From Leptolyngbya sp. Heron Island J (GTDB lineage: Bacteria; Cyanobacteriota; Cyanobacteriia; Phormidesmidales; Phormidesmidaceae): a stretch of DNA of 64,000 nt. Of this stretch, positions 12,552 through 64,000 are shown one piece after another. Position 1 is the first letter of the stretch. The number at the start of each line of letters is the position of its first letter. The notes beneath the pieces are model-generated. The model was given only the letters and a program-made list of their open reading frames with translations, had not been told where the DNA came from and made no database searches. The position numbers were made by a program, and so were the translations under genes. The stretch lies in assembly GCF_000482245.1 (NCBI RefSeq), contig NZ_AWNH01000113.1, positions 1-64,000 on the forward strand. The letters are read 5' to 3'.

Positions 12552-12581
12552 AATGATTGGCGAGTTCAACGCGGAAAGTTT

Positions 12582-33372: not shown

Positions 33373-33446
33373 CTGCTTGCGTTATTTCTAAATCCCTTAT
33401 CTCAGACTTCTTAACTTAACTCCCTACCCTAAAGCCCGAACATCCT

Positions 33447-36400: not shown

Positions 36401-37067
36401 GGATGCCCTACGGGATGGTCTAGACGCTCTGCAGAGACTGCACAGTGAAGTAACCGACAAAGCGGTGGCAGCAGTGGCAAAGGCCGTGGATCTGCAACGG
36501 GTACAGGTGGCCCAACTGCAGCAGATCAGTCGATTGGACAAAGTAGCTGACGCCGTAAATGAATTAGAGGCTCAGCTTGCGTTGGAGAGACCCTGGCGGG
36601 ACATGGCCAGTCTGGAGCCCCAGATGAAAGAAATTGTGGACCATTACCAATGTGTACGGCAAGAGTTACTGGAACAACAGGAACAGCAGTTTGAAACTGT
36701 ACGAAGAGAGCTACAGGAACGCCAAGGCTATTACAGCCTTGCTGAGACAAAAGCCAATCAGGTTATACAGCCCCTGCGAGATGCTAAAAGCAACACCACT
36801 GCCGATGCTATATTTCCTGCCCTAGTCGAGCTGAAAGAACCCGCCCAGGCCAAATTGTTCAAGGCTAAGGAGAAAGCGCATCAATATTTGAGTGAGGCAC
36901 TGGCAGAAATAACAGGAGAACAGGTGATCGAGGTGGATTTAAAGGCCATGGTGAGCAACCAAGAAATCAGTAATCCGGCAGAAGTAGAGGTGCTGGTAAA
37001 TCGCATTCGACAAGAACTCCTGGACAAACTGGAGGGCAGTGATGATATTCGGATTCGGTTGATTTAG
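33447..37067 (+). CDS. brxC: BREX ATPase BrxC (PglY-type)
   Basis: A 1206-aa AAA-type ATPase, full length for the family. Walker A is WISGFYGSGKSSFAKLLG (about residues 83-100) and Walker B is KTLFIVVDEVSQYIYQN (about 273-290). A sensor-like WLLATGQQKLEDS follows. Large helical regions with coiled coils are near the C-terminus (about 970-1120). In BREX it hydrolyses ATP and is needed for both host methylation and phage exclusion. Coding-strand composition is G-rich here, as in brxE-brxB. Confidence 0.93.
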   Translation: MKLQELFANDVTRDIPPVVYFHEQDPAKVAAEVGEYIITGGYRTDDPRYQYIKTTGIHEQFVRLLKGLANKIQKGNSALPASWISGFYGSGKSSFAKLLGLALDGMVLPDGTDLAATLLKRDDSPKSPDLAEAWHNLRGQIDPLAVVFDIGAVARDDEQIHSAIKRQLQKRLGYCNQNHYVAEHELKLELDGQWEQFLETAAAQLGRSWTEVKDSSNADYAFSRVLHHLDPELFVEPLSWSKVTAGRRTGIGTSAEETTKAIAQMLNHRAPGKTLFIVVDEVSQYIYQNTERMLALQSLVSSLGQRLKGQVWLLATGQQKLEDSDDESNISKLKDRFPSELRVHLAPTNIRDVVHKRLLKKKPAREPELAALFDQHRSDLKLYGYQCESIGKEDFLEVYPLLPGYVDLLMQITSNLRSRSTRAKSDDHAIRGLLQLLGELFREQKLGEKELGSLITIDNIFDVQQSALDNDVQNTLSRLFNNDEVINDPWAVRVAKAVALLELIQEQEATTPALVAQCLYDRLGKGNKVGEVTQALEKLRSLNLLSYSEKTGYKIQSSAGQEWEIERERHNPTSDAISEIIAIKLKELLGTTDNPKYKGKKFRWAAYYSDGRQRQNDKLQVPNELAVVTLDFHYLLKQKEPQSEQWVRTSANSDRIIWVVGKNDALESQIRELARSKRMKENYENRPTLSASKKNLLTNERGRYETLETRVKDAVAEAFLAGEIYFDGRPLDKQVYGSGFASLLTRLGESLLPNLYNCYVDVAVTPKELDQLLGLELTGISAKFMPDVLGIFALDAGKYTPTCQGEVPSRIEQYVISEGGLDGSSLLSHFGGPPFGYPADVVRACLAGLLRASKIRIRPEAGNDITSVRDPGAQDLFTKDRDLKRADVLPPSEEGVKARDRVAICKLFKDILGIDLDRDNDTLADAVFKYFPAQATKLRELEQRYNKLPHRPALPQDLSKLQTVLAKCMKSRQVEPTLQEVKRQLDALRDGLDALQRLHSEVTDKAVAAVAKAVDLQRVQVAQLQQISRLDKVADAVNELEAQLALERPWRDMASLEPQMKEIVDHYQCVRQELLEQQEQQFETVRRELQERQGYYSLAETKANQVIQPLRDAKSNTTADAIFPALVELKEPAQAKLFKAKEKAHQYLSEALAEITGEQVIEVDLKAMVSNQEISNPAEVEVLVNRIRQELLDKLEGSDDIRIRLI

Positions 37068-37082
37068 GGGGTTACTAATCGG

Positions 37083-41147: not shown

Positions 41148-41217
41148 AATGCATCACGACTGCAAAACAACAACTTAAGCTCTAACGACTTCTACCCAAA
41201 AAAGCGATTTCGATCCC

Positions 41218-44133: not shown

Positions 44134-44219
44134 TGGAGATACCCATTTAACACAGCAATCCTCAACAACATCTTGACAACAACAGAAAAAAATCACCCCA
44201 GGCGCAAGGAGAATCCACA

Positions 44220-45545
44220 ATGGCAATCAGCGAACGCAATCTCAACCACATCTTTGAACGACTACGCTCAGGCGTGGTACCAGAACGCGCCCTGGAAGCC
44301 TTTGCCGTGGGCATCGACAAACAACGAACCGAACTCCACCGTCAGCTCAAACTAGCCGCTGACAGCGAAGGGGTATTTAAGTTTCTCCGAGGGGGTTACG
44401 GCTGCGGTAAAACCTTTATGTCCCGTCTGGCTGCATTAGATGCCCAGACCCAGGGCTTCGCCACTAGCTTTGTCGTTGTTTCTGACAATGACCTGCACTT
44501 TTACAAATTTGACGATGTGTACCGCAAAGTAGTGCAGGAACTGGGCACCAGCAGCTGTCCCCGAGGAGCCCTAAGCGACATCATCGACCGCTGGATTGGC
44601 AAGGTGGAAGACGCCCTAATTGCCGGGGGAGCCGACGAAGACAGCGACGACTTTGACAACCGGGTACAAACTCGCCTGGAAGAAGAACTAGCCTCGATGA
44701 CCGGTGGTCAGGCCCCAGAAGACATGGCCCGTGTCCTGCGCACCATCTTTAACCTTAAACAAACAGGCAATATCGCCGAGGCCAGCGCCCTAATCTCCTG
44801 GCTATCGGGCAGTGAAAACGTAGCCGCCAGCGCAAAAAAAGCAGCAGGTATTAAGGGAGACATTGGCAGCCGCGAAGCCTTAGACTACCTCCACGGCATT
44901 TTAGAGATTGTCAAAGCCGCCGGGTATAAGGGTCTGGTCATTATCATTGACGAAGCCGAAACCATTCTCCGCATGCGCACCGATGTGCGGGGTAAGTCCC
45001 TCAATGGCATTCGCCAAATTTGCGATGCCGCCGACCGCTACCGAGGCCTGTTGTGGATATTTACCGGCACCCCAGAATTCTTTGACACCAAGCGAGGCGT
45101 AGCCGGTCTCGCCCCCCTCTATGACCGCATCAAGTTTGAGAGTAAAGGGGGATTTGTTAACCCACGTCAACCGCAACTGGAACTCAAACCCTTTGATGCT
45201 GACCGCCTTAAGGAAGTGGCCCTAAAACTACGAGAGATTTATCCTGCTGATACCCCAGCACGACTAACCAACAAAGTAACAACCGACTTTATTGAAAAGC
45301 TGGTGGATAAAGTCACCACTGGATTTAAGGGAGATGTGGGCATCGTTCCAAGACAGTTCCTACGGACGTTTATCAATGTTCTCGACCTTGTTGACGACGA
45401 TGAAAATGATGCCTACGACCCCATGGTGGTGGAAGGCTTTGAACCCAAAGACCTCACCGAAGATGAAACCCGTGTGCGCGAAGGACGCCCCCCATTTGAT
45501 CCAGAACCTCAAGACGAAAAAGATTACGCCCTAGTTGAGTTTTAA
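44220..45545 (+). CDS. brxD: BREX ATP-binding protein BrxD
   Basis: A 441-aa ATPase. Walker A is RGGYGCGKTFMSRL (about residues 57-70) and Walker B is LVIIIDEAETILRM (about 240). The sequence FTGTPEFFDTKRGV and a C-terminal winged-helix-like part match BrxD. A good ribosome site (AAGGAG) precedes the ATG. BrxD is paired with the helicase BrxHI in type 6. Confidence 0.9.
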   Translation: MAISERNLNHIFERLRSGVVPERALEAFAVGIDKQRTELHRQLKLAADSEGVFKFLRGGYGCGKTFMSRLAALDAQTQGFATSFVVVSDNDLHFYKFDDVYRKVVQELGTSSCPRGALSDIIDRWIGKVEDALIAGGADEDSDDFDNRVQTRLEEELASMTGGQAPEDMARVLRTIFNLKQTGNIAEASALISWLSGSENVAASAKKAAGIKGDIGSREALDYLHGILEIVKAAGYKGLVIIIDEAETILRMRTDVRGKSLNGIRQICDAADRYRGLLWIFTGTPEFFDTKRGVAGLAPLYDRIKFESKGGFVNPRQPQLELKPFDADRLKEVALKLREIYPADTPARLTNKVTTDFIEKLVDKVTTGFKGDVGIVPRQFLRTFINVLDLVDDDENDAYDPMVVEGFEPKDLTEDETRVREGRPPFDPEPQDEKDYALVEF

Positions 45546-45593
45546 CTCAGTCTTACCTGTCCTGCGTTTATCCCTGAATTATCGCTGCCGCTC

Positions 45594-47732
45594 ATGACCT
45601 CAGCCTTTGCCCGCTTTCCAACCCGTCTACAGGAAGCCATCGTTTCTCGCCTGGGTTGGACTTCACTGCGTCCGGTGCAGGAACTGGCCAGCCATGTCCT
45701 ACTGGACGGCAAAAATGCCGTGATTCTGGCCCCTACCGCTGGAGGCAAAACTGAGGCCTCCATGTTCCCCATGTTGGCCCAGCTGATCGCCAACGAACCC
45801 AAAGGAGTAGGCTTGCTCTACATCGCTCCCATTAAAGCCCTACTCAACAACCAGGCAGAACGTCTGGGGCTGTACACCGAAATGGTAGGACTGCGCCGCT
45901 TTCTGTGGCACGGAGATGTCAAAGCCCAACAAAAAAAGGCCTTTGTCAAAGAACCCGCCCAGTTACTCATGACCACCCCGGAATCATTGGAGGTCATGCT
46001 GCTATCGTCCAAAATTCCCCATGCCAAACTGTTTAGCGATTTGCGGGGTATCGTCATCGATGAAGTCCATGCTCTGGCCGGTTGCGATCGCGGAACCCAT
46101 CTGCTTTCGGTGCTAGAACGCATCGCCCGCTTTACCGAAAATGACATTCAGCGGGTAGGTCTGAGCGCCACCGTGGGCAATCCAGAGGCCATTCTACAGT
46201 GGCTCCAGGGCACCTCCCAGCGGGACGGCTGTGTGGTTGATCCACCGAAACAGCCTTCGCCCAAGGATTTGAAGATATATCTGCGGGAAACTCTGGGTGC
46301 GATCGCAAATGATGCCAGCACCCTGGCCCAGGGTAGAAAAAGCCTATTCTTTTGCCAGAGCCGTTCCCTAGCTGAAGACATTGCCGAGCGAATGCGCGAT
46401 CGCGGCACCGATGTCTTTGTCCACCACAGTTCCGTTTCCCTAGAAGAACGCGCCGCTGCTGAAGAACGCTTCCATAGCGGTACCAATGCCAGCATCGTTT
46501 GCACCTCCACCCTAGAACTAGGAATTGACGTAGGCGATCTTGACCTGGTTCTCCAGGCCAATGCCCCTTCCACAGTGTCTTCGTTTCTACAGCGCCTGGG
46601 CCGCACCGGTCGCCGCAGTGGACAGCGGGCCAATACCACCTTCTACTGCGAAGACATGGAACCCGCCCTCCAGGCCATGGCCATTATCGAACTGGCTCGC
46701 CAGGGCTGGGTAGAATCGGTCCCTGTCCAAACCCGCACCTGGCCTGTACTGGTTCATCAACTATTGGCTCTCACCCTTCAATTTGGAGCCATCAGCCCAG
46801 AACGATGCTGGGAACAACTATCGGTCATTTCAGACTTTTCAGGCATTACCAAAGAAGAATACGACAGCTTGATTCACCACATGATCAAAGAAGATTTTCT
46901 CTATTCTTCTGGTGGTCTTCTCTCCATGGGTACCCAGGCAGAACGTACCTTTGGGCGCAAGAACTTTATGGAAATCTACGCTGTTTTTAGCAGTCCCCAG
47001 CTCTATAAAGTCCAAACCAAAGCAAATTACATCGTAGGCTCCCTGGAACAAGCCTTTGTGGACAAACTAGTTCCAGATATCAACACGTTTCTACTCGGCG
47101 GTCGCGCCTGGATCGTCCTCAACATCAGCCATGATGACCGCAGTGTGCGCGTAGCCCCTGCCCCCAGGGGAAAAAAACCCAGTTGGGGAGGATTTATCCC
47201 CCAGCTACTAAGCTTCGACCTCTGCCAACAGGTTAAAGCTATCCTGCAAAGCAACGATCCAGTTCCCTACATCGATGGCATTAGCCAAGCCGCTCTAGAT
47301 GAAGGCCGTCAGGACCTACAGCCTCTCCTGGCCAAAACCGGACTCCAGTTTGAAGCCGACCGAGTCCTTTGGTGGACCTTTGCCGGTGGACAAATCAACC
47401 ACACCCTTAAATATGGCCTCCAGTTCCACCACGACTGGAAAGTTGTTGCCGACAATTTCAAAATTAAAATCGAAGGCGATAGCGTTGGCCCTGGCACAGT
47501 GAATCTATCCATCCGTGAAATGAGCCAACCTGGCTTCTGGTCAAAACCTGCCGTTGAAAGGTTTATCTTTTCCCAACTCCCCGACTATCGCCTCAGCAAG
47601 TTTCAAAAAGCCCTACCCGAAGCCTTTGCTCTGGAAATTATCTATGACTATCTACTAAATCCAAGAGGTACTAGTAAGTTCCTACAAGCAATGGCAAACA
47701 AGACATCCAGCCAATCACCACAAAAAGTCTGA
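45594..47732 (+). CDS. brxHI: BREX helicase BrxHI (DEVH-box)
   Basis: A 712-aa superfamily 2 helicase of the Lhr-like type. Motif I is ILAPTAGGKTEAS (about residues 45-57), motif II IVIDEVHALAG (about 151), motif III LSATVGNPEA, motif V LELGIDVGDLD and motif VI QRLGRTGRRSGQR. It completes the type 6 set. The C-terminal 250 residues include a winged-helix and an unassigned domain. Intact by sequence. Confidence 0.9.
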   Translation: MTSAFARFPTRLQEAIVSRLGWTSLRPVQELASHVLLDGKNAVILAPTAGGKTEASMFPMLAQLIANEPKGVGLLYIAPIKALLNNQAERLGLYTEMVGLRRFLWHGDVKAQQKKAFVKEPAQLLMTTPESLEVMLLSSKIPHAKLFSDLRGIVIDEVHALAGCDRGTHLLSVLERIARFTENDIQRVGLSATVGNPEAILQWLQGTSQRDGCVVDPPKQPSPKDLKIYLRETLGAIANDASTLAQGRKSLFFCQSRSLAEDIAERMRDRGTDVFVHHSSVSLEERAAAEERFHSGTNASIVCTSTLELGIDVGDLDLVLQANAPSTVSSFLQRLGRTGRRSGQRANTTFYCEDMEPALQAMAIIELARQGWVESVPVQTRTWPVLVHQLLALTLQFGAISPERCWEQLSVISDFSGITKEEYDSLIHHMIKEDFLYSSGGLLSMGTQAERTFGRKNFMEIYAVFSSPQLYKVQTKANYIVGSLEQAFVDKLVPDINTFLLGGRAWIVLNISHDDRSVRVAPAPRGKKPSWGGFIPQLLSFDLCQQVKAILQSNDPVPYIDGISQAALDEGRQDLQPLLAKTGLQFEADRVLWWTFAGGQINHTLKYGLQFHHDWKVVADNFKIKIEGDSVGPGTVNLSIREMSQPGFWSKPAVERFIFSQLPDYRLSKFQKALPEAFALEIIYDYLLNPRGTSKFLQAMANKTSSQSPQKV

Positions 47733-52648: not shown

Positions 52649-53209
52649 TCAGAACCGTTTAAGTGGCATCACTTCCAAGGTTAAACATCCTGCTGAATGT
52701 GAGGTGGTATCTGCGCTATGGGTTAAGCTACCGGGATTTGTAGGCATAGTTGGATTCTTCGCCGACTTATAATCAATCAGATCCACCCCCTCTTCCAAAC
52801 TATTCAATCGGTCATAACGCCCTGTCAGCTTAAACTCCAGACCATTCACTTGGATCAAACCCTGAATACGTCCCTCCGTCGCCAACGGACGCTGCATCAC
52901 CCTCAAGGGCACAATCTCAGTTTCAACATACCGCCGCAGAATCTGCCACCTCTCTTCCACCTGGGTCGCAGTCAACGCACCAATCTGATTTTCCCAGCAA
53001 TACCGCAACCATTCCTCAGACGGTAGCGGATCCTGATAATGCCAATCCTGATACAGTTGCGCCAGGGCACCATGCAATGCCGTACCTAAAACTGCCGCAC
53101 CAAATACCGACGGCTGTTTCAAACCATACTCATACCGGTAGTAGTACGCCCTGGGACGCTGGGCATAGGACATCAGTTTAGTTGCCGAAAGAAGATACGC
53201 CATAGTCAA
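52649..53209 (-). pseudogene. N-terminal part of a Cas4/RecB-like nuclease gene (truncated)
   Basis: It starts with MTMAYLLSATKLMSYAQRPR and continues AYYYRYEYGLKQPSVFGAAV, GTALHGAL, RPLATEGRIQG, LTGRYDRLNSLEEG and DLIDYKSAKNP. It then diverges into an unrelated tail (TMPTNPGSLTHSAD) before the stop. The core D...DYK active-site motif is present, but the C-terminal half with the Cys cluster is missing. That half is found, in a diverged copy, 4.5 kb away beyond the NACHT gene. Confidence 0.7.
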
Positions 53210-53301
53210 TATTCTAATGAGCTACGGTCATCAGACAACCGTCTGTGACGTATCGTTATCCAATCGCAACTGCCTCAAACTCTCTCGTCAGCACGCTTTT
53301 A

Positions 53302-54945
53302 TTACCCAGGAGACACTTGGGTCGCCGCAACATATCGTTGAGCCTGTTGGAGATAAGTCTCGGGCGTAATCTTAACTTTGGCCAGAGGCGTTCCATCCGC
53401 AATAGATAAATACCCGGTCAGCGGCGGCAACATCTGCAGCTCTGTTGGCATCACCGCATAGGTTTCTCGGATATGCTCACTCCGACTGCCCGGCTTTAAG
53501 CCAAACCATCGAGTCGTGCGCAACTGTTCCAGACGTTCCTGTTTCCCCAACAACTGCGCCATCACCTGGGCCGTCTCCCCATCACGACAGTTCAAGATCA
53601 CCTTAGTCGCTGTCCCTTGTAATATCGTACGCGTTATCTCCGGGCCATACACATGACGAATCTGGGCTTCCGTTTGGGTGCCAATCATGGCACTTCCTCC
53701 ATACTTTCTCGATTCAGACAATAGTCGCGGCAAACTATTTAACCGGTTCAACGCCCCCAACTCATCAATCACCACCGCTGTCTTGAGCCGACGATCCGCC
53801 TGGGAGAGTAACCCTTTCAACATCAGTTCAAAGGCCATCGAATGCAAGGGCTTAAACAGGGCCACATCATCTTCAAAAATCGGCAAAAACAACCAGCGTG
53901 GATCATCACTCCTGGCCCAGCGACTAAAGCTAAAGTTACCGTCCTCATTAAGCTTGCGATAAAACCGCAACACATTCACCAGAGTACTGAGCACACTAGC
54001 GCCTGTTTTTTCAGCCGTAAAATACCGAGTCGACATACTACCCGCCAAAAAGGTGGACAATTCCTCCACACTCAATTGAGTGACCACCTGCCATAAGGCA
54101 TGATTATTCGGACACCGTTCATACAGGTCAGCCAGCAGACTGCGGGCCGCCTCACTAAAAAAGCGCTCTTTTGAATCATCGGGCACCAATGCTGTGGCAA
54201 TCGTCTCAGGTTCCATCCCTTCACTACGGTGGCTCCAGCTTACCGACCGACTATCGCGAGGATTAAACAAAATATCTCGACCATCAGTATAAAACTGTTG
54301 AAGCAATTCACCATTGCGGTCCAAGATAATGGCCCGCATATCGGGCCGTTGTTTAAGGCGATAGAGCAGCTGTTGGATCACTTGGGTTTTACCTGAACCA
54401 GGAGAGCCTGCACAGAAAACACCCAGAGTCTCCAGAGAATGAGGTAGTGTGACACCCCCGATCGCCAACTGAGGTTGATACGCTAATAACTTTTGATTGT
54501 GATTGTTCTGATTCAGTCGGTGCTGTACTTTCCCCACAGATGTCAGTTGAGCCCCACGTAAAATCCTTCCCCCAGGCATCCGGTTCATGATGATCAAGAC
54601 AGCCCAGGCACACAGCAACATACACACGGCTGCAATGCCACCCGCCAGCAAACAAAAGCTTTGAGGCGACTCCGGTGTTGTGCCTTTGCGGATTTCCCAC
54701 AGCCCCCAAAGATAGCCCAACACACCCGAACCACCCACTAACACAACAGGTAGATACGGTTGAACCTGGCCCCAACGCAACCGGGGATAACACACCTTAG
54801 CCAGACCATACATCAAGCCAAGTGTCGGCAACAGAATCAAACCACACATCGCCGCAATGGCGATGATATAAACCACAACACGAGTGGCCACTGCCAGCAA
54901 TGACAGCACCAGCATAAACAGAATGAGTGGGTAGACATTTTCCAT
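53302..54945 (-). CDS. Type IV coupling protein (TraD/TrwB family)
   Basis: A 547-aa protein. The N-terminal 130 residues hold about four hydrophobic helices. Walker A is VFCAGSPGSGKTQVIQQL (about residue 178) and Walker B is TAVVIDELGALNRLNSLPRL (about 390), followed by GGSAMIGTQTEAQIRHVYG. Such proteins pump the relaxase-DNA complex to the conjugation channel. It lies 18 bases after the relaxase gene, as expected for a trwBC-like pair. No channel (type IV secretion) genes are in the window. Confidence 0.88.
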   Translation of the reverse strand: MENVYPLILFMLVLSLLAVATRVVVYIIAIAAMCGLILLPTLGLMYGLAKVCYPRLRWGQVQPYLPVVLVGGSGVLGYLWGLWEIRKGTTPESPQSFCLLAGGIAAVCMLLCAWAVLIIMNRMPGGRILRGAQLTSVGKVQHRLNQNNHNQKLLAYQPQLAIGGVTLPHSLETLGVFCAGSPGSGKTQVIQQLLYRLKQRPDMRAIILDRNGELLQQFYTDGRDILFNPRDSRSVSWSHRSEGMEPETIATALVPDDSKERFFSEAARSLLADLYERCPNNHALWQVVTQLSVEELSTFLAGSMSTRYFTAEKTGASVLSTLVNVLRFYRKLNEDGNFSFSRWARSDDPRWLFLPIFEDDVALFKPLHSMAFELMLKGLLSQADRRLKTAVVIDELGALNRLNSLPRLLSESRKYGGSAMIGTQTEAQIRHVYGPEITRTILQGTATKVILNCRDGETAQVMAQLLGKQERLEQLRTTRWFGLKPGSRSEHIRETYAVMPTELQMLPPLTGYLSIADGTPLAKVKITPETYLQQAQRYVAATQVSPG

Positions 54946-54963
54946 GGTTAATCAGGTAATGCA

Positions 54964-57900
54964 CTATCGTTCAAGGTCTTGATCATGCTGACGTTGGTGA
55001 GTTTGGCCCCGCTGTTGAACAACCGCTCTCACCTGTTGTTTGACATAGTCAACTGCTGCGGTGCGGCTTTCTTGTTGCCGCAGTTGCCGCGCCCGAGGCC
55101 CTTGAAACAAAGTACGAGTCACCTCACGCAGCTGTGCAGGCGTCGGGTCGCTCCCACCGCAGTGGGTTTGAAGCCATCGATGGGCAATCAGCCGGTCCTG
55201 TTGTTCTTCTGACATCAATGGCAACTGAGCCGCATAGTGGTCATAGGTTTGCCGGTCTTTGCGGGTTAGGGCCACTCGGCGTCGATGGTTTGCAAGGACT
55301 GTTGCCAGCTGTCGAGAAAGGTCTTGAACTGTTGGGTCTGGGTCTCGTCGAGAGCGTTCACCTGCTCGATTAACGCGGCCAACATCTGTTGTGAGGCCGC
55401 TTGTGCTTCGAGTGACGCGGCCAATTGTGTTTTCAACGTCGCGATTTCCGCATACAGTGGCTGCAAGCTGGCGAGCAAGGCACTCTCCAATGCGCCTGCC
55501 GTCATCTCGACGGTCAACGCGGGGGTGGGGGGCTTGGGTTTTCGAAGTTTGGGCATTCGGAATTACCACATGATAGAGGGGCAAATAGTCACTGGCATTT
55601 TGGTTCGCTCTCGATTGTTGAGCCACTCGAACCAGGTCTTCTTTACTCGTTGTGTACAGGTGTAACTCTCGTTTGGCACGGGAGACCGCCACATAAAATG
55701 CTTCTCGGCTCAAGGTGGTATCGGCTGCCACAAGTACACGTTCTGCCGTCTTACCTTGACTGCTGTAGGTGGTGCTCACCAGGTCATAGTCCACATATTG
55801 GTGACCGCTCAGGTCAATGGATTTTATGGCTCCGTCCGCCGTCAGGATTTGGGCCTGGCCTTGAGTATCCAGGGCTGTGATGGTAAAGCGTTGACCATTG
55901 CGAACACCTGAGTCTCGATTGTTCCGTGTCCACCGCAGTTGTTCACCCACTGCAATTGGCACCGTCTGCAGGCGATAACAGGTTTTCTGAGCACAGTGAA
56001 TCGGGTTAAGGGTCAGGGGTTGTCCCGTCGGACTCGATAGGGAGAGTTGGTTACGGGTCAGATCAATGCCAGTCACCGTATATTGCTGATGGCGTTTTAG
56101 GCCATGGCGACGATAGTCACGTACCGGAACAATCACATCGCCGATGTCATAGTGACGCACATATTGGGCCTGGGCCTGGGTTAAGTCTTTTGGACGTAGC
56201 GATCTTAACGTAAACCCATCCACGGCTAGACTCCCCTCTGCCTGCAGTTCTGTGCGAAGCTGTTGAATCAGCTCCAGACGCTCGGCATTGGTACCACTGA
56301 GAATAAGCGTCTGTTGTCGTTGTTGCGGAGACAGTTCTAAATAGGTCTGAATCAACTGAGTAAAGCGTTCTTTTAGGGCCACGTCATAAATCATGCCTGC
56401 CGCATCCAGTTGGGAGATACCAGCCTCGATCTGACCTGCTGAAATCTGAGTCACCGCCGTTTTGAGCACGTCCGTTTGTTGGCGACGTGATTCGCTTAGC
56501 ATCGCCATTTCAATCCCCGCCGCTTGAAGCGACTTAAATGGATTCCCCGCTTCCACTGCAGACAGTTGACGGATATCCCCCACCAGCACCACCCTCGCCT
56601 GGCAGTCTTCCGCCCGTTGAAGCAGATCATGGGCCGCTTTGGCACTCAGTAACCCCGCTTCATCCACAATCCAAATCGGATGATTAGCGGATGAGGAATC
56701 TGTGTCCTTCGTATGGAGCAACCCGGCAACGGTGTCACTCTGGATACCCGTCTCTCGACCCAGGGTGCTGGCCGCCTGGGCACTGGGCGCATACCCCGTA
56801 ACCGTATAGCCATTGCGTGTAGCTAGCTCTGCATAGAGTTTGAGGCTATAGGTTTTACCCGCTCCAGCCACCCCCTGCCAGGCAATCACCCGGTCCTTTG
56901 TCATGGCAGACAAAGCCACCGCCTGTCGTTGACCTTCCGTTAAGCTGGGCACCTGAGTTAAGTACTGGTCTACCTGCTCTGATGTCGCCAGCGGTTTCAC
57001 CTGTCCCCGTCCCCGCTGCATCAACTGAATTGTTTTTAGCTCTCGGTCAATGGCCGTTTGAGTCGTGGCTAACGAGCCATCCACTGGAATCAGCTCAGGA
57101 TGCTCTGAGATCGCCTGGCGTAGATCTGAAAACCGCTGCTCTCCCAGGGCATGTTCCAGGGCAAAACGTTCTGCTTTAGCTCGGTGAAACACACTGTCGC
57201 GCTCAGCCGCATGATAAATGCCAGCCGTTGCCGCATCCATGGCATAAGTCTGACTGGCTTGGGTCAAATCAAGGGTATGGGTGGGCACCTTAGGCAGGAC
57301 CAGGCCCTGCTCGCGAATCGTATGTGCCCAGCCATCAAGCAATACCTGACGCGGCACGGTGGTTTTACGACGACGGGTATCTAACGTGGCCTGCTTTTGT
57401 TGACTGCGATGAAGCGGCACACCCCCAGCGGTCACCAACTTGGTTTCCCAAGTATTGATATAGGCCTCAATCTGCTGAGTGCGTGTGGAAAACGTATCCA
57501 ATAAATCCGGGCTATAGCCCGTCAGTTCAAACTGACCGTTAGGACGTGGCTCAATGCCATATCCAGATTGACGCAGTTGAAACGCCAGTTCATTTTGGTA
57601 GATCTCACCCAACAGTTTTTGGTTAGCTACCAGCGCGTCATTACTCAAACTACACCAGCTACCATCCGCCAATTGAGTCGTGTTGATAATGACGCAGTGA
57701 CTATGGAGTTGGGGGTCTTGTTCACGACTGGTTTCATGCCGAAAAACTGCTGCTACCAGATTGCCAGTCGTTACTTTCTCGCGCACACCCTCAGGACGTC
57801 GCACTCGGGTTTGGGCATAGCGCTCTTCTAAAACAGAAAGGGCTGTTTTGACTGCATGGGTATGTGCTGTTAACACCCGCGAATCGTTTTGAATTAACGC

Positions 57901-58206
57901 GGCAATCGACACACTTTTGGGTGCAGAAAAGGTACAGTCTGTCGCAGCACGATGGCGGTCTGGATCAATCTTGCGAGCATGCAACGATTGACCATTGGGA
58001 GCCTGACCATGAAGCAACGATTGAAACGTAGATTGATCAAACTCACCCGTTAACCCCAGGGTCCGAGCACCGGCACCATACCAGATCGCATTTGGATCCA
58101 GCGCCTCATTAGCGACGCCATCCTCGTCTAGCGAGCGGGTATAGTAATCATCTTTTTCGTAGTAGTTTTCGGCCTGAGCCGCTGACACATTGGCAATGGA
58201 CAGCAT
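54964..58206 (-). CDS. MobF-family relaxase/helicase (TrwC/TraA-like)
   Basis: A 1080-aa protein from MLSIANVSAAQAENYYEKDD; the extra frame to 58227 is not preferred. Relaxase part: paired tyrosines YYEKDDYY (about residue 15), FSAPKSVSIAALI (about 85) and the metal-binding histidines in REQDPQLHSHCVIINTT (about 160-175). Helicase part: WQGVAGAGKTYSLK (about 450), IWIVDEAGLLSA (about 515) and the C-terminal VSRAKRELHLYT. It nicks oriT and unwinds the strand for transfer. Near the C-terminus there is a Gln-rich tail. Intact by sequence. Confidence 0.92.
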   Translation of the reverse strand: MLSIANVSAAQAENYYEKDDYYTRSLDEDGVANEALDPNAIWYGAGARTLGLTGEFDQSTFQSLLHGQAPNGQSLHARKIDPDRHRAATDCTFSAPKSVSIAALIQNDSRVLTAHTHAVKTALSVLEERYAQTRVRRPEGVREKVTTGNLVAAVFRHETSREQDPQLHSHCVIINTTQLADGSWCSLSNDALVANQKLLGEIYQNELAFQLRQSGYGIEPRPNGQFELTGYSPDLLDTFSTRTQQIEAYINTWETKLVTAGGVPLHRSQQKQATLDTRRRKTTVPRQVLLDGWAHTIREQGLVLPKVPTHTLDLTQASQTYAMDAATAGIYHAAERDSVFHRAKAERFALEHALGEQRFSDLRQAISEHPELIPVDGSLATTQTAIDRELKTIQLMQRGRGQVKPLATSEQVDQYLTQVPSLTEGQRQAVALSAMTKDRVIAWQGVAGAGKTYSLKLYAELATRNGYTVTGYAPSAQAASTLGRETGIQSDTVAGLLHTKDTDSSSANHPIWIVDEAGLLSAKAAHDLLQRAEDCQARVVLVGDIRQLSAVEAGNPFKSLQAAGIEMAMLSESRRQQTDVLKTAVTQISAGQIEAGISQLDAAGMIYDVALKERFTQLIQTYLELSPQQRQQTLILSGTNAERLELIQQLRTELQAEGSLAVDGFTLRSLRPKDLTQAQAQYVRHYDIGDVIVPVRDYRRHGLKRHQQYTVTGIDLTRNQLSLSSPTGQPLTLNPIHCAQKTCYRLQTVPIAVGEQLRWTRNNRDSGVRNGQRFTITALDTQGQAQILTADGAIKSIDLSGHQYVDYDLVSTTYSSQGKTAERVLVAADTTLSREAFYVAVSRAKRELHLYTTSKEDLVRVAQQSRANQNASDYLPLYHVVIPNAQTSKTQAPHPRVDRRDDGRRIGECLARQLAATVCGNRDVENTIGRVTRSTSGLTTDVGRVNRAGERSRRDPDPTVQDLSRQLATVLANHRRRVALTRKDRQTYDHYAAQLPLMSEEQQDRLIAHRWLQTHCGGSDPTPAQLREVTRTLFQGPRARQLRQQESRTAAVDYVKQQVRAVVQQRGQTHQRQHDQDLER

Positions 58207-58897
58207 GGCAACCGTTTCGCAAAACAACAGCCACAGGCGGTTTGGAGAGTGAAATCGTTAAACAGATTAGCCTGTGGGAATTAGGGCGATTTTTCAGGAA
58301 TTCGGTGGCCCACCGTGGGCGTAATGTCTGAACCCGCGAAGCCCCGAAACCGTTAATCTGGCGTGAATCCTACAGAATCACTCACGGGGCGTAGCTCATA
58401 TGGCCTAATCCTGATCCCACAAATCCGATCCGGAGACTTATCCAAAGTCGCTACATTCGTTTACAGTCGATGCAACAACGGAAACGCCTCGATAATTCAA
58501 TCGTTAACAGCAAAGGAAATCTGATCGTTAATGATGCGTGAATCCTATCTTTAACAGTAGAGAAATCTTTCTGGACAATCTTTGTGATAATAATCAGCAA
58601 TCACTCAGATACGGTTTCTTATGAAGTCGTGAATCGATTAATAAGAGTTCTTCCAGTTGATCAGGGAAAACAACCGTGAACTGAATCGCTCGTCTCAGCA
58701 CTTAGCCCTAGAGAAACGAAAACGAAATCGCTGACATATTCTGAACAAACGCAATTCGATACACCATTGCAATATCAGGCTGTTGAATATAGCGGCAATC
58801 AAAGTTAATTCAATCGTTAAAGGAATCGAAGGTTTCTGGAACGCATCATCAGAATCACTCTATCTATGAAATTAGAGTCCCTTCGTTACGTCTTGTC
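58207..58897. promoter_or_regulatory. Candidate oriT and divergent promoter region
   Basis: A 690-base gap between the relaxase (left) and the stb-like genes (right). Repeats seen: AATCGTTAA at 58253, 58499 and about 58811, with an exact 13-base ATTCAATCGTTAA at two of these. A longer pair, CGTTAAT, three to four bases, then GCGTGAATCCTA, occurs near 58351-58372 and 58526-58547. This is the expected place for the relaxase nick site and for accessory-protein sites; the nick itself I cannot place. Confidence 0.55.
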
Positions 58898-59299
58898 ATG
58901 GCAGAGGATGTGTATTCTGCGGAAACAATCGCGGCATGCAAACAGGATCTGATTGACCTAGCCCAAGAACCGCGTACCCACTTCAATAAACGTGAAGCGG
59001 TGGCGGCACTCTTTGAGGCCATTGAAGAGGCATTAGTGAATCACACCTATGCCGAGGTCGCACAACGCCTGGGGAAATCAGGACTGACCATCTCTGCGGG
59101 TAGTTTGAAGCAATACATGCTCAAACTCAAACGTGAACGAAGCGGTAACTCTAAAAAAACGTCAGGGTCATCAAAACGTAAACGCGAGGGTAACACCAAG
59201 CGCATCGCTGAAAAACCATTGGGGCAAACACCGACATCGTCTAAACCGACGACGCGGGTACTCCCAGATGCATCAGACGAGGTCACACTCGCATACTAA
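58898..59299 (+). CDS. HTH-like accessory protein (StbA-position)
   Basis: A 133-aa protein. The N-terminal half contains a probable helix-turn-helix (TYAEVAQRLGKSGLTISAGS, then LKQYMLKLKRERS). The C-terminal half is a basic, Ser/Lys-rich disordered tail (KKTSGSSKRKREGNTKRIAE). It is first of three rightward genes facing the relaxase operon across the candidate oriT, the place of stbA in R388. DNA binding near oriT is likely; the exact role is inferred. Confidence 0.65.
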   Translation: MAEDVYSAETIAACKQDLIDLAQEPRTHFNKREAVAALFEAIEEALVNHTYAEVAQRLGKSGLTISAGSLKQYMLKLKRERSGNSKKTSGSSKRKREGNTKRIAEKPLGQTPTSSKPTTRVLPDASDEVTLAY

Positions 59300-59304
59300 A
59301 GGGG

Positions 59305-60081
59305 ATGACGATGACCGTTACAAAAGAGAAACACTCAACGCAAACGAATCGGAAACTTGAAAGTGAACTCGGCGTTAATCAACGGATTCACTTTGCCGAT
59401 GGCAATAAGGGTGGCGTAGGGAAAAGTGTCCTCTGCCGTACACTCTATCAATGGTTCCTGGACCGGAAACACCCCGTTATCGGCATTGAAGCTGATGTGA
59501 ATAGTCCTGATTTCAAAGGCATTTATGGGGACGTTAAGGTCGCGCAATTCTCAGAGGATGAAACCATTGGGGCCAGAGCGAACACCATCGTGAATACGGT
59601 GGTCGATAGCCAGAAAAACGCCGTCGTGAATCTACCGGCAACGGTCTATGAAGCGTTTCGTATCTGGTTGCGCGATTATGACATTCTTACCCTGGCGGCT
59701 GACAACCACATCGAGTTGGTGAAGTGGTTTGTCATCACTGGGGAATTTGACAGTCTCAAAAGTTTAGAAATTTCTCTCAAAACCTTTGACCGACGAATTC
59801 CCCATGTCGTGGTCAAAAACTTGAAGTATGCCGATTGGTCTTTCTTTGATGAGGCGGATGAACTCCAGGCGTTGATTAAAGCAACCCAGACACCCGTCAT
59901 TGAGTTACCTAAACTACCGGTGCGGGTGGCCAGTACTGTCCTGCAACAGCGGCTCACCTATGCCAATAGTCAAACCTATCGCGGTAAAGGCTTTGGTGTG
60001 GTGGAACAGGCCGCTGTCAAAAGCTATCTGCGCTCGGCCTATGCCGCCTTTGAATCCACCGGTTATTTACCGGGGCATTAG
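59305..60081 (+). CDS. ParA/MinD-like ATPase (StbB/TraL/MobD type)
   Basis: A 258-aa protein. The deviant Walker A HFADGNKGGVGKSVLCR (about residues 30-46) has the signature lysine intact, unlike the ParA at 11.7-12.5 kb. Then GIEADVNSPDFKG, VVNLPATVYEAF (Walker B position lacks the usual D) and LAADNHIELVKWF. The shape matches conjugation-linked ATPases (StbB, VirC1, TraL, MobD), which move the relaxosome to the transfer site. It is six bases after the HTH-like gene. Confidence 0.75.
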   Translation: MTMTVTKEKHSTQTNRKLESELGVNQRIHFADGNKGGVGKSVLCRTLYQWFLDRKHPVIGIEADVNSPDFKGIYGDVKVAQFSEDETIGARANTIVNTVVDSQKNAVVNLPATVYEAFRIWLRDYDILTLAADNHIELVKWFVITGEFDSLKSLEISLKTFDRRIPHVVVKNLKYADWSFFDEADELQALIKATQTPVIELPKLPVRVASTVLQQRLTYANSQTYRGKGFGVVEQAAVKSYLRSAYAAFESTGYLPGH

Positions 60082-60096
60082 GCGAGGAGGCTTCAC

Positions 60097-60735
60097 ATGA
60101 AACCAACCACAGATGAGCAACGACGTTTAGCCGGGGCCATGGGGGTGGACCCGGACGATCCCTTGATTACGCTCCTCAAACCCATTGCTGATCTCGCTGA
60201 GGAAATGAAGGCATGGAAGGACATCGACATCGAGTTACTCAAGTTTCTACGCAGCACCAGTCAGGGGGTGGAACGAACCGCGACCAACTTCTCCAGGCTC
60301 GCCAACTCTTACACGATATTGGAAGAGCAATCGACCGAATCCACCAAGCAAATTCAAGCGGAGAAAAGCATCTTGATGGCCTTGACCCAAAACATCGAGC
60401 AGTTGAGCTCTCTCCGACAATCCAGCCACAGCGAGATTCAGAACAAACTCAGCAGCATCCATTACGATCTCAATCAGACCAAGGTCTTGAGCGCTAGGCG
60501 ACCGATTCAATGGGTACCCTTAGCTCTGGCAATTGTCATTAGTGCCTTAACGGGTTGGGTTGGCTGGAAAGAGGGACGGCTCAATGGCTATCGGTTGGGA
60601 CGTTTGGAAACTACCGGCGCGTTTGGGGGTGAGACTAATACGCATTATTGGTCACAGGTGCGAAAGCTGAATCGGGATGTCATTAATGGCTGTCGCGAGC
60701 AAGAGAAAGAGACCTGTTCGGTGGAGTTGCCGTAG
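60097..60735 (+). CDS. Coiled-coil protein with one membrane helix (StbC-position)
   Basis: A 212-aa protein. Residues 20-130 form a helical coiled coil (FSRLANSYTILEEQSTESTK, IQAEKSILMALTQNIEQLSS); one transmembrane helix follows (PLALAIVISALTGWVGWKEG, about 147-166), then a short C-terminal domain with two Cys residues. A good ribosome site (GAGGAGG) precedes the ATG. It is third in the three-gene run; the family is unknown to me. It could anchor the ATPase-relaxosome at the membrane. Confidence 0.65.
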   Translation: MKPTTDEQRRLAGAMGVDPDDPLITLLKPIADLAEEMKAWKDIDIELLKFLRSTSQGVERTATNFSRLANSYTILEEQSTESTKQIQAEKSILMALTQNIEQLSSLRQSSHSEIQNKLSSIHYDLNQTKVLSARRPIQWVPLALAIVISALTGWVGWKEGRLNGYRLGRLETTGAFGGETNTHYWSQVRKLNRDVINGCREQEKETCSVELP

Positions 60736-60775
60736 GGGGAATGGGTTGGAGTGATTAGGTTGCGATCGCAGATTG

Positions 60776-60803
60776 TGGTTGGAGTGCGATCGCATTCCAA
60801 CCA
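60776..60803 (+). terminator. Hairpin with HIP1 core after the stb-like genes
   Basis: A 28-base near-perfect palindrome (TGGTTGGAGTGCG pairing with CGCATTCCAACCA around AT, one mismatch pair) lies about 40 bases after the last stop. It contains the HIP1 octamer GCGATCGC at its centre; another HIP1 is at 60762. Possible terminator. Confidence 0.4.
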
Positions 60804-61038: not shown

Positions 61039-61317
61039 CTAGCTAGCCGCTACGGCTTCCTTGAATCCCTTCCCAGCGGAAAATGCAGGCACGGTTGTCG
61101 CCGGAATGGTCATTGTTTCACCGGTTTTCGGGTTCCGCCCTTCACGTTCCTTACGATCCCTGGGTTCAAAGCTCCCAAACCCCACAAATGTAACCTTTTC
61201 CCCATCGGCTACAGCCTCCATGATGGTGTCAATCGCTGCCGAGACGATCGTGTCGGCCTCTTTCTTGCTAATCCCTGCCTTAGCAGCCACAGTAGTGATT
61301 AATTCGCCCTTGTTCAT
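61039..61317 (-). CDS. hup: HU-family DNA-binding protein
   Basis: A 92-aa HU protein. The start MNKGELITTVAAKAGISKKE has a GGGAGA ribosome site; the frame to 61371 is an extension. Conserved features are VTFVGFGSFEPRDRKEREGR, NPKTGETMTIPA and the C-terminal AFSAGKGFKEAV. It bends DNA. On a plasmid it may assist replication, transfer or silencing. Confidence 0.92.
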   Translation of the reverse strand: MNKGELITTVAAKAGISKKEADTIVSAAIDTIMEAVADGEKVTFVGFGSFEPRDRKEREGRNPKTGETMTIPATTVPAFSAGKGFKEAVAAS

Positions 61318-61573
61318 ACCTATCTCCCATAAGTCGAGATAAGTTCTAGCACGAGTCTCCAGGGAGTACAAGCATTATTCATAACGGTATACATCCACCG
61401 TCAAAGCAAGCCAGTGTATCGGCGTTAATGGTGATAGCGATAGGCCGAACTATGATTGAAACGAGACGTTGAGTTTCGAGTCTCTGGGGGCATCCACTCA
61501 GCATCTATCCATCCGCATTATTCTTCATGCAGGTTAGTGACCCATTCTGAACTCGAAGCGTTTGGGAGCGCTC

Positions 61574-63448
61574 ATGTCACATCCATCTCTATCCAAGGCA
61601 TCTCCCCCACGCATCCCTGCAACAGAGATGCGTAGCTTAGTTCAGCAGCTAGAGCATCCGGCTCGTCTGATTGTGGATGAGACGCGCTTAGATCTCGATA
61701 GTCTATGCCCCTTTCAGATTGCGCCGTGGCATCCGACAACTAACGTGGTTCCCTATGAGCAGGTTCCCAAGCTGTATTTAGATATCGAAACCTTGGGATT
61801 AGACCCAACAGTGGATCGGATTATTGCGATTGGCCTACGGGATGAACGGCAAATTTCTTACAAAATTACCCATCAGGACGAAGGCTGGATTCTGCGTCAG
61901 GCACTGGCCGCTATCTCAAAGAAACAGCCAAAGCTGTTGTTAGGCTATAACCACCTGGCTTTTGACCTGCCATTTATCATCGAGCGCTGCCGCATTCATA
62001 AAATCCCTCATCCGTTTACGGTCAGTAACCGTGAAAAACGGATTGGAGCTGCTCGTATTAACGGAAAAGCGATCAGGTTTCATCCGATTTATGCCAAGGG
62101 TATGGATCTGGTTGATGTGTATCACCAGGTCCTAATCAATGACTTCTCAGCCCGGCATCTGACCCGCTACACCCTCAAACAGGCGGCTCTGCAAATGGGT
62201 GTTCGGGATATTCCCAGACTTGATCTGTCCTATCCAGACATCTGTGACCTTTGGGCCAAAGGGCAAACCGAGCCGATTCTTGAGTATCTGGAATACGATT
62301 TAGAAGATACTGAACGGCTGGCTGACTATCTGATCCCTAGCATCTACTATCAGCAAGAATTTATTCCTGGAATGAGCGTGCAGGCCCTGGCGGTCAACGG
62401 CAATGGCACCAAATGGCAGCGAATTTTAGAAGACCAGTATCCAGACCAGTTGGCCCCTGCAACCGATGATGTGGTTGAGTTTGAGGGCGGCCTAACTCTG
62501 GGTGTAGCTGGACTGCATCGTAATGTCTCGAAAGTCGATGTCAGTTCACTGTACCCCTCTATCATGCTGCGGTATGGCATCTATTCTCGAAAAGACCCCG
62601 AAGGCAAGATGCTCAGCATTCTGGCCAGTCGTTTAACGGAACGGCTACGCTTGAAGGCCCTGGCTAAGCAAGGTGACCGAGCCGCCCATCAAAAGCAGCA
62701 AGCTTCAAAAATCATGATCAACTCCTTGTATGGGTTCTTGGGTACCCCTGGCGTTGGCTATAACGACTATGAAGCGGCTGCGTTAGTGACGGCTTACGGG
62801 CGTGCGATCGCACGCCTCATGATGACATCCATTGAGCAAGCTGGTGGTACAGTAGCCGAGGTCGATACCGATGGCGTGCTCTTTAGTGCTCCACCAGGTG
62901 AGAATGAGCGCATCTTTCAAGCCGTGCAAGCGGCATTGCCGGACGGGATAACTGTTGAGCACGAGTTTCAGGCGGAAGCGGCATTTATCCCAGCGGCCCA
63001 GGATGGGAAAACAGGGCTTTGCAAGAACTATCTGGTGTTCTTTGCCGATGGTCAGGTGAAAGCCGCTGGACGGTTTCGTAGTCGAGATCGCAGTGAGCTA
63101 GAGCGCACCTATCAAGGTACCTATATCCAGCGATTCTTGAGGGCTCCAGAAATGGCTGAGACCCATCATCAGGACACCTTAGCGCAGCTACGTGCGGGGC
63201 ATTATCCGATAAACCAGCTCAGCGTCACTCGCAAGATTCGTCGGGGTGAAAAAGCCTTGCTTGCGTTGGGGAATGAAGGCGACATGGTGACGTTCTATGA
63301 GGGACCGAACGGGGTGAAGATCAGCAGTGGTCCTTACGATAGCCGTCATTACTGCACGCTGATTGAGGAGATGCGAACGGATGTGCTTAAGGTGGCCGAT
63401 CCTGAGCTACTGATCACGACCCAACCCACACAGTTAACGCTGCTGTAG
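61574..63448 (+). CDS. Compact family B DNA polymerase with 3'-5' exonuclease
   Basis: A 624-aa PolB. Exo I is LYLDIETLGL (Asp about residue 70), Exo II GYNHLAFDLPFI (about 124-135) and Exo III YDLEDTERLADYL (about 238). Polymerase motif A is KVDVSSLYPSIML (about 321), motif B SKIMINSLYGFLGT (about 378) and motif C EVDTDGVLF (about 430, DTD). At 624 residues it is shorter than E. coli Pol II (783). I chose the ATG at 61574, with GGGAGC upstream, over a TTG at 61562. Plasmid-borne PolB genes are unusual; it may copy or repair the plasmid. Confidence 0.92.
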   Translation: MSHPSLSKASPPRIPATEMRSLVQQLEHPARLIVDETRLDLDSLCPFQIAPWHPTTNVVPYEQVPKLYLDIETLGLDPTVDRIIAIGLRDERQISYKITHQDEGWILRQALAAISKKQPKLLLGYNHLAFDLPFIIERCRIHKIPHPFTVSNREKRIGAARINGKAIRFHPIYAKGMDLVDVYHQVLINDFSARHLTRYTLKQAALQMGVRDIPRLDLSYPDICDLWAKGQTEPILEYLEYDLEDTERLADYLIPSIYYQQEFIPGMSVQALAVNGNGTKWQRILEDQYPDQLAPATDDVVEFEGGLTLGVAGLHRNVSKVDVSSLYPSIMLRYGIYSRKDPEGKMLSILASRLTERLRLKALAKQGDRAAHQKQQASKIMINSLYGFLGTPGVGYNDYEAAALVTAYGRAIARLMMTSIEQAGGTVAEVDTDGVLFSAPPGENERIFQAVQAALPDGITVEHEFQAEAAFIPAAQDGKTGLCKNYLVFFADGQVKAAGRFRSRDRSELERTYQGTYIQRFLRAPEMAETHHQDTLAQLRAGHYPINQLSVTRKIRRGEKALLALGNEGDMVTFYEGPNGVKISSGPYDSRHYCTLIEEMRTDVLKVADPELLITTQPTQLTLL

Positions 63449-63581
63449 ATCGAAGGCCCGAGCATGGATAGCGACTGACCTGACTTTGAGCGGAAAAGAA
63501 CGCATTGCTCTGGACTGTTGAGTGGCATGAGTGGTGGCATACCCGAAAGTTTCTAGCCATATAATCGCTCCAGAACAAAGA

Positions 63582-63812
63582 ATGATCTGTCACATGCGTC
63601 CAGAGCCGTTACTTCATCTACGCGCTGCGATTAAGCGTGGTTGTCATCCGGACCACCGGGATCTTCGTTGGTTGGCGCAGAATCTGAATTATCTTGATTC
63701 TTTAGAGACGGATGTCAAAACGACTGCTCAATATTGGTTAGACGAAGAGAACGAATTTCTTTTGTTACCACCTGCCACAAGGTCAGGGAGCAACCATAAT
63801 CTGGCAGAATAA
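63582..63812 (+). CDS. Small protein of unknown function
   Basis: A 76-aa frame from MICHMRPEPLLHLRAAIKRG; a longer frame begins with GTG at 63531. It is helical and His/Arg-rich early (HPDHRDLRWLAQNLNYLDSL), acidic later (YWLDEENEF). It follows the polymerase by 133 bases. No family recognised; it may be real because its composition looks protein-like. Confidence 0.4.
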   Translation: MICHMRPEPLLHLRAAIKRGCHPDHRDLRWLAQNLNYLDSLETDVKTTAQYWLDEENEFLLLPPATRSGSNHNLAE

Positions 63813-64000
63813 CGCCTATTGGCATTACACCACATTAGGATGTTCAACCATCAGGTCTGCCCAGGAAACATCTTGTGATGTATTCCCATTGAGGCTTCGC
63901 ACAATTCAAGGATGGCCTCTTTAGCGACAGCAGGTATAGTCTACAGGAGGACAGTGGAGCAGGAATTTCAATCGATTGAAGGGGGGTAGGCTACTACGTA
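63813..64000. other. Intergenic end of the window
   Basis: No gene or repeat recognised in the last 190 bases. Confidence 0.4.

Follow-up and report, generated by a model that had tools for sequence, protein, structure and literature searches.

A compact family B DNA polymerase on a plasmid-like Leptolyngbya element and its relation to plasmid clamp-loader cassettes

Introduction

A family B DNA polymerase (PolB) gene lies near one end of the window, i.e., the whole 64,000-nucleotide stretch analysed here (positions 1 to 64,000 of contig NZ_AWNH01000113.1, hereafter C113, of Leptolyngbya sp. Heron Island J). This polymerase is the sole PF00136 match in its genome, which also encodes DnaE. The locus raises the question of what such an enzyme does for the element that carries it, and with which partners.

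Results

An intact proofreading polymerase gene

The polymerase is encoded by one intact open frame, which is preceded by GGGAG; an in-frame TTG at 61562 offers an alternative start (628 aa). In Pfam, PF00136 (DNA_pol_B) scored above its cut-off, as did the exonuclease/RNase H-type profiles PF13482, PF10108 and PF03104. PHROGs matched phage DNA polymerases (phrog_262, 3e-43), and the best solved relatives by sequence were archaeal PolBs (best 4.1e-20). The features of the gene are as follows.

61574..63448, + strand: family B DNA polymerase, exonuclease-positive, 624 aa from ATG 61574 (frame, Pfam, PHROGs, alignment)
61781..61789, + strand: Exo I, D70-I-E72; the N-terminal domain of canonical PolBs is absent ahead of it (alignment)
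61949..61966, + strand: Exo II, N126 to D131, GYN...FD, unlike the GWN of the Pol II-like clade (alignment; GWN rule from passages of PMC7544198)
62285..62299, + strand: Exo III, Y238 to D242 (alignment)
62537..62557, + strand: motif A, DVSSLYP, D322 to P328 (alignment)
62708..62734, + strand: motif B, K379 to G387 (alignment)
62858..62875, + strand: motif C, E429-V-D431-T-D-G434, the glutamate being a G3/PolEpsilonN mark (passages of PMC7544198)
63023..63031, + strand: KxY, K484-N-Y486 (alignment)
63431..63445, + strand: C-terminal QLTLL, residues 620-624, a weakened beta-clamp binding tail (compared with QL[ST][LI]F of plasmid relatives)

In a 13-sequence alignment including the window polymerase, D70/E72 (Exo I), D131 (Exo II), Y238/D242 (Exo III), D322 (motif A), K379/N383 (motif B), D431/D433 (motif C) and K484-N-Y486 (KxY) were invariant, and N126 of Exo II was nearly so. 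This alignment bears out an earlier reading made from the sequence alone (the sequence-only reading), according to which all exonuclease and polymerase motifs fit within 624 residues, fewer than in cellular Pol II (783 aa in E. coli). Compactness is a family trait, with 595-631 aa across the cyanobacterial plasmid and isolate-phage relatives; the viral-contig PolB frames, read from the first start, span 657-692 aa.

Leptolyngbya sp. PCC 7375 has a 94% copy of the polymerase on a contig of 344,561 bases (G004:C3), and the Exo I of this copy aligns with D70 of the window protein. Third codon positions account for 91 of the 128 base differences between the two genes, and dN/dS was 0.115, 0.158 or 0.144 by three methods. 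This third-position bias and a dN/dS of 0.12-0.16 indicate a gene under purifying selection and no chance frame. The same values, together with the occurrence of the gene in two strains whose replicons are rearranged, make it very improbable that the element merely acquired the polymerase from a phage and has no use for it today. That possibility is suggested by the fact that, apart from the PCC 7375 copy, the closest proteins by identity are two viral-contig PolBs (51% and 48%), whose tree joins to the window pair are unsupported (54/27.5 and 47/56.6 in two trees).

The AlphaFold model of the window polymerase was of low-to-moderate quality (mean pLDDT 59.3, pTM 0.51), and Foldseek with this model retrieved archaeal PolBs (best E 3.4e-22, TM by query 0.48), matches that speak for the predicted fold class alone. 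A promoter and terminator scan was uninformative (4 promoter-like sites vs 2.8 expected; 1 terminator-like site vs 2.5 expected).

Placement among family B polymerases

When the window polymerase was searched against plasmids, 51 of 72,556 records matched, of which 18 were covered over at least 80% of the query, all of them cyanobacterial; a second query, the Calothrix PCC 7716 PolB, returned the identical 18 records and 9 Deinococcus records. Among 50,697 phage records, 31 matched, 7 of them over at least 80%, all from Nostoc, Anabaena or Dolichospermum phages. A scan of viral contigs with the window protein as sole query found no relative, and four PolB relatives were found with an alignment as the query. 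Identity to the window protein was 35-46% for the 18 full-length plasmid PolBs and 40-44% for the 7 phage PolBs (A-1 and N-1 among them), the compact size being common to both.

These relatives include a known group. In passages of Chenard et al. 2016 (PMC4916379), the PolBs of phages A-1 and N-1 and three plasmid PolBs form a distinct group, and passages of Kazlauskas et al. 2020 (PMC7544198) assign the PolBs of Nostoc phages to bacterial G3, a group akin to the active half of eukaryotic Pol epsilon. A phylogeny among PolBs, which the sequence-only reading had proposed as a check, placed the window polymerase in the plasmid/phage clade: the whole cyanobacterial set formed one branch (100/100) against Deinococcus and Salinibacter-phage PolBs, and within it lay the window copy, phage N-1, the N-1 relatives Elbi and Dfl-JY23, and Gloeothece pP742402. 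The A-1, Nostoc 7120 and split A. variabilis PolBs were outside the tree sampling, and EcPolII, T4gp43, Natrono and G004chr were omitted from these trees as long branches (in the last tree phM31CR too).

In a separate tree with Pol II and T4, the placement of the cyanobacterial set against them had weak support (51/8), so the window polymerase is excluded from Pol II by its motif and its profile scores. Exo II reads GYN, not the GWN of the Pol II-like clade (G1), and the NCBIfam Pol II models gave 60 bits or less, far under cut-offs of at least 570. The sequence-only reading is thus supported in part: the polymerase is distinct from chromosomal Pol II, is the sole PF00136 match beside a host DnaE, and belongs to a plasmid/phage clade.

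Could it nevertheless serve, like E. coli Pol II, in the damage response or in lesion bypass, as a gene carried for the fitness of the host? The two share the family B plan, proofreading motifs, a C-terminal clamp-like peptide and a solo gene, and passages of PMC12926913 describe Y-family polymerases as absent or depleted in several groups, Cyanobacteria included. We consider this role quite unlikely, as the profile scores and the Exo II motif differ from those of Pol II. In addition, no LexA-like site, taken here to follow the pattern GTACNNNNGTWC, was present near the gene: a scan of the window found two palindromic sites (four matches on both strands, 1.5 expected), the nearer of which is more than 11 kb away. 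LexA-type control of the polymerase thus received no support from the scan.

Other PolB classes fit less well. PolB2/G2 enzymes, according to passages of PMC7544198, have an inactivated exonuclease and a single conserved motif C Asp, whereas D70, E72, D131, D242 and both motif C Asp are present here; the DNA_pol_B_2 profile of protein-primed PolBs (casposon, phi29 type; PF03175) gave 11.4 bits vs a cut-off of 25.8. By contrast, the window polymerase resembles G3, as characterised in passages of PMC7544198 and PMC12926913, in its intact exonuclease and polymerase sites and in its motif C glutamate (AEVDTDG), a residue absent in Gcit7424, N-1, Elbi, Dfl-JY23 and L104-L106. Where G3 is reported to have a beta-clamp motif, the window protein reads QLTLL, with a final L instead of F. 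The N-terminal domain, canonical for G1-G3 in passages of PMC12926913, is missing: 69 residues precede Exo I, which starts at residue 70, vs 145-170 residues (starts at 146-171) in four Deinococcus/Salinibacter-phage PolBs. The window polymerase belongs with the cyanobacterial plasmid and phage PolBs described in 2016, which branch off G3 and lack the N-terminal domain; within this clade it forms a separate lineage.

A different, longer PolB (783 aa; L014:5298-7649) is encoded on the largest contig of G004 (PCC 7375), and G007 has a related but shorter frame (L015:3974-5233); both stand among genes resembling a phage replication module.

A clamp and clamp-loader cassette around the plasmid relatives

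The plasmid relatives have a constant genomic context. In all 18 full-length plasmid PolB records, dnaN lay within 5 kb and on the PolB strand. The 11 records inspected gene by gene all had the order dnaN-dnaX-polB-holA-holB, with small frames intervening in some; genes were identified by annotation, or by position where annotated as ATPase or hypothetical. Pfam confirmed the clamp, gamma/tau, delta and delta' for the Gloeothece cassette and delta' for that of Anabaena cylindrica, while the Trichormus polB is split by an insertion sequence. Public annotations of these plasmids already name dnaN, dnaX and holA. Prim-Pol (PF09250) was present in 11/11 inspected plasmids and DnaE (PF07733) in 0/11; for DnaE, a plasmid-wide search proved too broad (2021 records matched) and was replaced by direct record searches, and PF00136 itself was imperfectly sensitive, recovering 10 of 11 known PolB plasmids. 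Eight of the 11 plasmids were typed as MOBP, two (Calothrix) as MOBV, and one had no relaxase listed.

The same arrangement was seen in genomes. Of 386 cyanobacterial genomes drawn, 12 had a PolB match at 1e-20, five at full length including the window copy. Clamp-loader genes adjoin all four other full-length copies, although two of these contigs (G203, G269) end before the expected dnaN. Seven genomes had PolB fragments, and three of the four inspected showed decayed or cut cassette genes nearby.

The converse does not hold: in five hand-picked PolB-less cyanobacterial plasmids with dnaN, Prim-Pol, DnaE and PolB were all found in 0/5, so the idea that every dnaN plasmid needs PolB fails in each of the five. 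Four cyanobacterial plasmids (L082-L085) carry dnaN-dnaX-holA and gave no PolB, Prim-Pol or DnaE match; their polymerase-less clamp sets are perhaps served by the host DnaE.

Because of the cassette order, the presence of Prim-Pol and not DnaE, and the clamp tail of the PolBs described below, these gene sets point to putative plasmid-owned replisomes with PolB in the DnaE seat. A known counterpart is the T4 replisome (gp43 with gp45, gp44 and gp62), in which a mobile element likewise encodes a PolB and its own clamp and loader; genes 43, 62, 44 and 45 were all seen in the T4 record. This parallel is functional only, and it applies to the cassette relatives, not to the window: passages of PMC7544198 describe the T4 clamp and loader as structurally archaeal/eukaryotic-like, whereas the plasmid cassettes have bacterial DnaN and DnaX/HolA/HolB.

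Additional observations were made on individual plasmids. In the cassette flanks of L018, L019 and L024, E2-like, ThiF (E1-like) and Mov34/JAB genes lie between the primase and clamp genes, which places a ubiquitin-like conjugation set inside their replication region. Motif A SLYP is replaced by SMHP or GMH in the PolBs at L019:19956-21773, L023:11956-13773, L025:13986-15812 and L026:13986-15794, which thus have histidine at the tyrosine position that we take to be the steric gate against ribonucleotides.

A putative clamp-binding tail in the plasmid PolBs

Each of the 14 intact PolBs encoded next to clamp-loader genes, 10 from plasmids and 4 from genomes, has a peptide of the type QL[ST][LI]F within its last seven residues, and the C-terminal half of the split Trichormus PolB has it as well. 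Passages of PMC3716654 give QL[S/D]LF as the clamp-binding consensus and describe the Pol II peptide QLGLF in complex with the clamp; QLGLF is also the C-terminus of E. coli Pol II in our comparison. Since a clamp motif is reported for G1 and G3 in passages of PMC12926913, the tail as such is expected; it is for its pairing with a plasmid-owned clamp that no account was found in the literature searched. Among the outgroups, QPGLF occurs close to the C-terminus of the Deinococcus deserti PolB, and the D. grandis protein gave no match of this kind.

The distribution of the tail was determined by scanning for the strict motif on mechanical ORFs (ATG start, at least 150 aa). It occurred on 21 of 247 ORFs of the cassette plasmid stretches, 11 of these being PolBs (one the Trichormus half), on 1 of 62 ORFs of PolB-less dnaN plasmids, on 0 of 31 at other loci, and on 0 of 243 ORFs of the window contig and G004:C3 (6 kb of the window counted twice).

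Ten cassette-plasmid frames other than PolB also end in QL[ST]LF-type tails. Four are 155-160 aa frames straight after Prim-Pol (L018:11125-11592, L019:8226-8708, L021:2690-3157, L023:256-738), four are 220-224 aa frames after holB (L019:24678-25352, L022:16668-17330, L023:16674-17345, L024:17653-18324), and two are Calothrix frames of ~1,730 residues (L025:18459-23654, L026:18718-23919), one of which has Pfam methyltransferase and helicase domains. Several proteins of the plasmid may use its clamp as a common hub. TDGHRL-like and LVMP-like segments, which presumably line the peptide pocket, are kept in most of nine aligned plasmid clamps.

Phages show a mixed picture. One viral contig has a DnaB-like helicase (by eye), a PolB with QLSLF and DnaN in a row (L103:5757-11040), and another of the same lineage (L109) has a helicase and a PolB with QLSLF, with no dnaN found within ~6 kb either side; QL[ST][LI]F thus stands at or near the end in 2/2 viral-contig PolBs of this lineage. 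Neither the tail nor a clamp match was found in the records of N-1, Elbi, Dfl-JY23 and L104-L106; among these, L105 measures 15.8 kb, and the viral contigs may be incomplete. A strict link between tail and own clamp across phages is therefore imperfect, given L109.

The window polymerase without a cassette

Unlike the plasmid members of the clade with tail and cassette, and unlike N-1, Elbi and Dfl-JY23 without a tail, the window polymerase has an altered tail and no cassette on its contig. A search of 25 cassette proteins against C113 (72,477 bases) and the joined G004:C3 returned PolB only, the dnaN-dnaX-polB-holA-holB order was not encountered, and no Prim-Pol match was found on C113. As C113 is a 72-kb contig in a 119-contig draft, replicon partners elsewhere could be missed; clamp, DnaX and HolA were searched genome-wide. 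The window genome and that of PCC 7375 each have one PF02767 clamp match, one DnaX over the model cut-off and one full-length HolA (DnaX itself also passes the HolA cut-off). In a sensitivity check of PF02767, the Gloeothece plasmid clamp scored 57.4 bits vs a cut-off of 27, so a comparable plasmid clamp in the window genome should have shown.

We then asked how the window polymerase relates to the cassette PolBs. With viral rows included, the 14 cassette PolBs formed their own branch (90/94; 89/91) with the window pair outside; without viral-contig rows, the window pair joined Gloeothece pP742402 (92/94; 90/86), a join flagged as two long branches meeting. Constraining window and cassette rows together was not rejected (p-AU 0.471), nor was cassette monophyly without the window in the tree without viral rows (p-AU 0.235). 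A loss of the cassette from a cassette ancestor was accordingly dropped as a claim, as the viral rows put the window pair outside and the p-AU values reject neither arrangement. The window polymerase is a lineage separate from the cassette PolBs, with a weakened tail and no cassette, and appears to represent a third configuration of the family, a solo one.

These data bear on whether the polymerase replaces host DnaE once priming is done and serves as principal replicase of the plasmid that encodes it. The relatives would suggest so, with PolB in a cassette with clamp and loader, dnaN within 5 kb in 18/18, Prim-Pol in 11/11 and DnaE in 0/11. C113, however, carries no cassette partner, and the five dnaN plasmids without PolB, Prim-Pol or DnaE suggest that host DnaE can copy such plasmids, which leaves the replicase role unlikely.

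Genomic neighbourhood

The polymerase lies in a contig with transfer genes, whose features are listed below.

53302..54945, - strand: TrwB/TraD-type coupling protein (context)
54964..58227, - strand: TrwC/MobF relaxase-helicase (context)
61039..61371, - strand: HU-type DNA-binding protein, a neighbour outside the shared block
61444..64000, + strand: window part of the block shared at 93% with G004:C3 (PCC 7375)

The plasmid nature of the element is suggested, though not proven, by matches to a relaxase, a coupling protein and ParB and by a ParA-like frame at 11751-12569 (by eye); neither C113 nor G004:C3 showed an exact overlap of its ends. The sequence-only reading had placed the gene next to HU, which is correct, and 1.5 kb from the conjugation genes, which is not: the nearest one identified, the TrwC-type relaxase, ends at 58227, ~3.3 kb away, and the frames between it and the polymerase include a ParA-like one just over the cut-off.

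The two contigs share a PolB block (contig 61444-65772, 93.2%) and a transfer region (52741-60799, 92.6-93.1%), but in the sister replicon G004:C3 PolB and the same relaxase are ~190 kb apart. Given this distance and the position of HU outside the block, the neighbours form no conserved unit, and a conserved adjacency of PolB to HU and relaxase was rejected. Nor was a constant rep and relaxase partner, as the sequence-only reading had considered, supported: ten of the 11 plasmids inspected are MOBP or MOBV, the window MobF, and the sister relaxase far removed. The constant partner of the plasmid relatives is instead the clamp and clamp-loader cassette, absent from C113.

Several other features of the contig were observed. 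BREX genes stand in a row at window 31264-47732 (BrxE, BrxA, BrxB, BrxC, PglX, PglZ, BrxD, BrxHI), a set that we take to be BREX type 6. A NucS-like gene 3' of PolB (C113 64616-65658; L011:6616-7658) is one 354-aa frame in PCC 7375 and two frames here, with inverted sequence at the break. Between RRM and NucS-like genes, 58 bases (C113 64513-64570; L011:6513-6570) are 81% identical to part of polB and are likely a remnant of a second PolB copy.

Discussion

What, then, does the window polymerase do? We hold it somewhat better than an even chance that it is a clamp-tethered accessory polymerase borrowing the host clamp. According to this proposal, the gene would make a compact proofreading polymerase of the cyanobacterial mobile-element PolB lineage, whose C-terminal QLTLL would dock on a beta sliding clamp. 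This clamp would be the host DnaN, because no second clamp gene was found in the window genome. On the clamp, the polymerase would extend primed ends of element DNA, for instance when the second strand is made after conjugative entry, when gaps are filled or during repair, and in this way would copy or repair the element.

The individual parts of this proposal differ in standing. At the sequence level, the catalytic residues are intact, the gene is under purifying selection within a mobile-element clade, the plasmid relatives carry the clamp tail, and the cassette is missing here. From these features we infer the polymerase activity of the window enzyme, clamp binding by its altered tail and the step that it would serve. 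Both Leptolyngbya copies (window and PCC 7375) keep QLTLL at the same place, and both end in L instead of F; together with the strict scan (0/243) this means that clamp binding may be weak or lost. L109 offers a parallel to the window state, being a tail-bearing PolB without dnaN found in its flanks.

The gene adds a member to a published PolB group; the cassette link, the tail pairing and the solo lineage are new here. In the literature searched, to which most subscription journals and all preprints did not belong, no published account of the cassette or the solo lineage was found, and one may be in print.

In the usual view, the bacterial Pol III holoenzyme is a set in which DnaE or PolC works with its clamp and loader. 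To judge from the cassette relatives, conjugative plasmids may have a set of this kind in which a PolB replaces DnaE. We tentatively propose, as a possibility that we rate below even odds, that this PolB family is the catalytic core of chimeric plasmid-owned cyanobacterial replisomes, of which the window gene is a solo branch that uses the host clamp and whose tail has changed from QLSLF to QLTLL. In such a chimeric replisome, a PolEpsilonN-related family B polymerase would occupy the place of DnaE. The bacterial beta clamp, its DnaX/delta/delta' loader and the Prim-Pol primase would all come from the plasmid, together with SSB in some records and other clamp-tailed partners. If this is true, polymerase exchange on a bacterial clamp would become testable in a natural system, which bears on evolutionary polymerase swaps, and the window gene would be the matching case without a cassette, so that clamp choice and tail sequence may be compared between the two.
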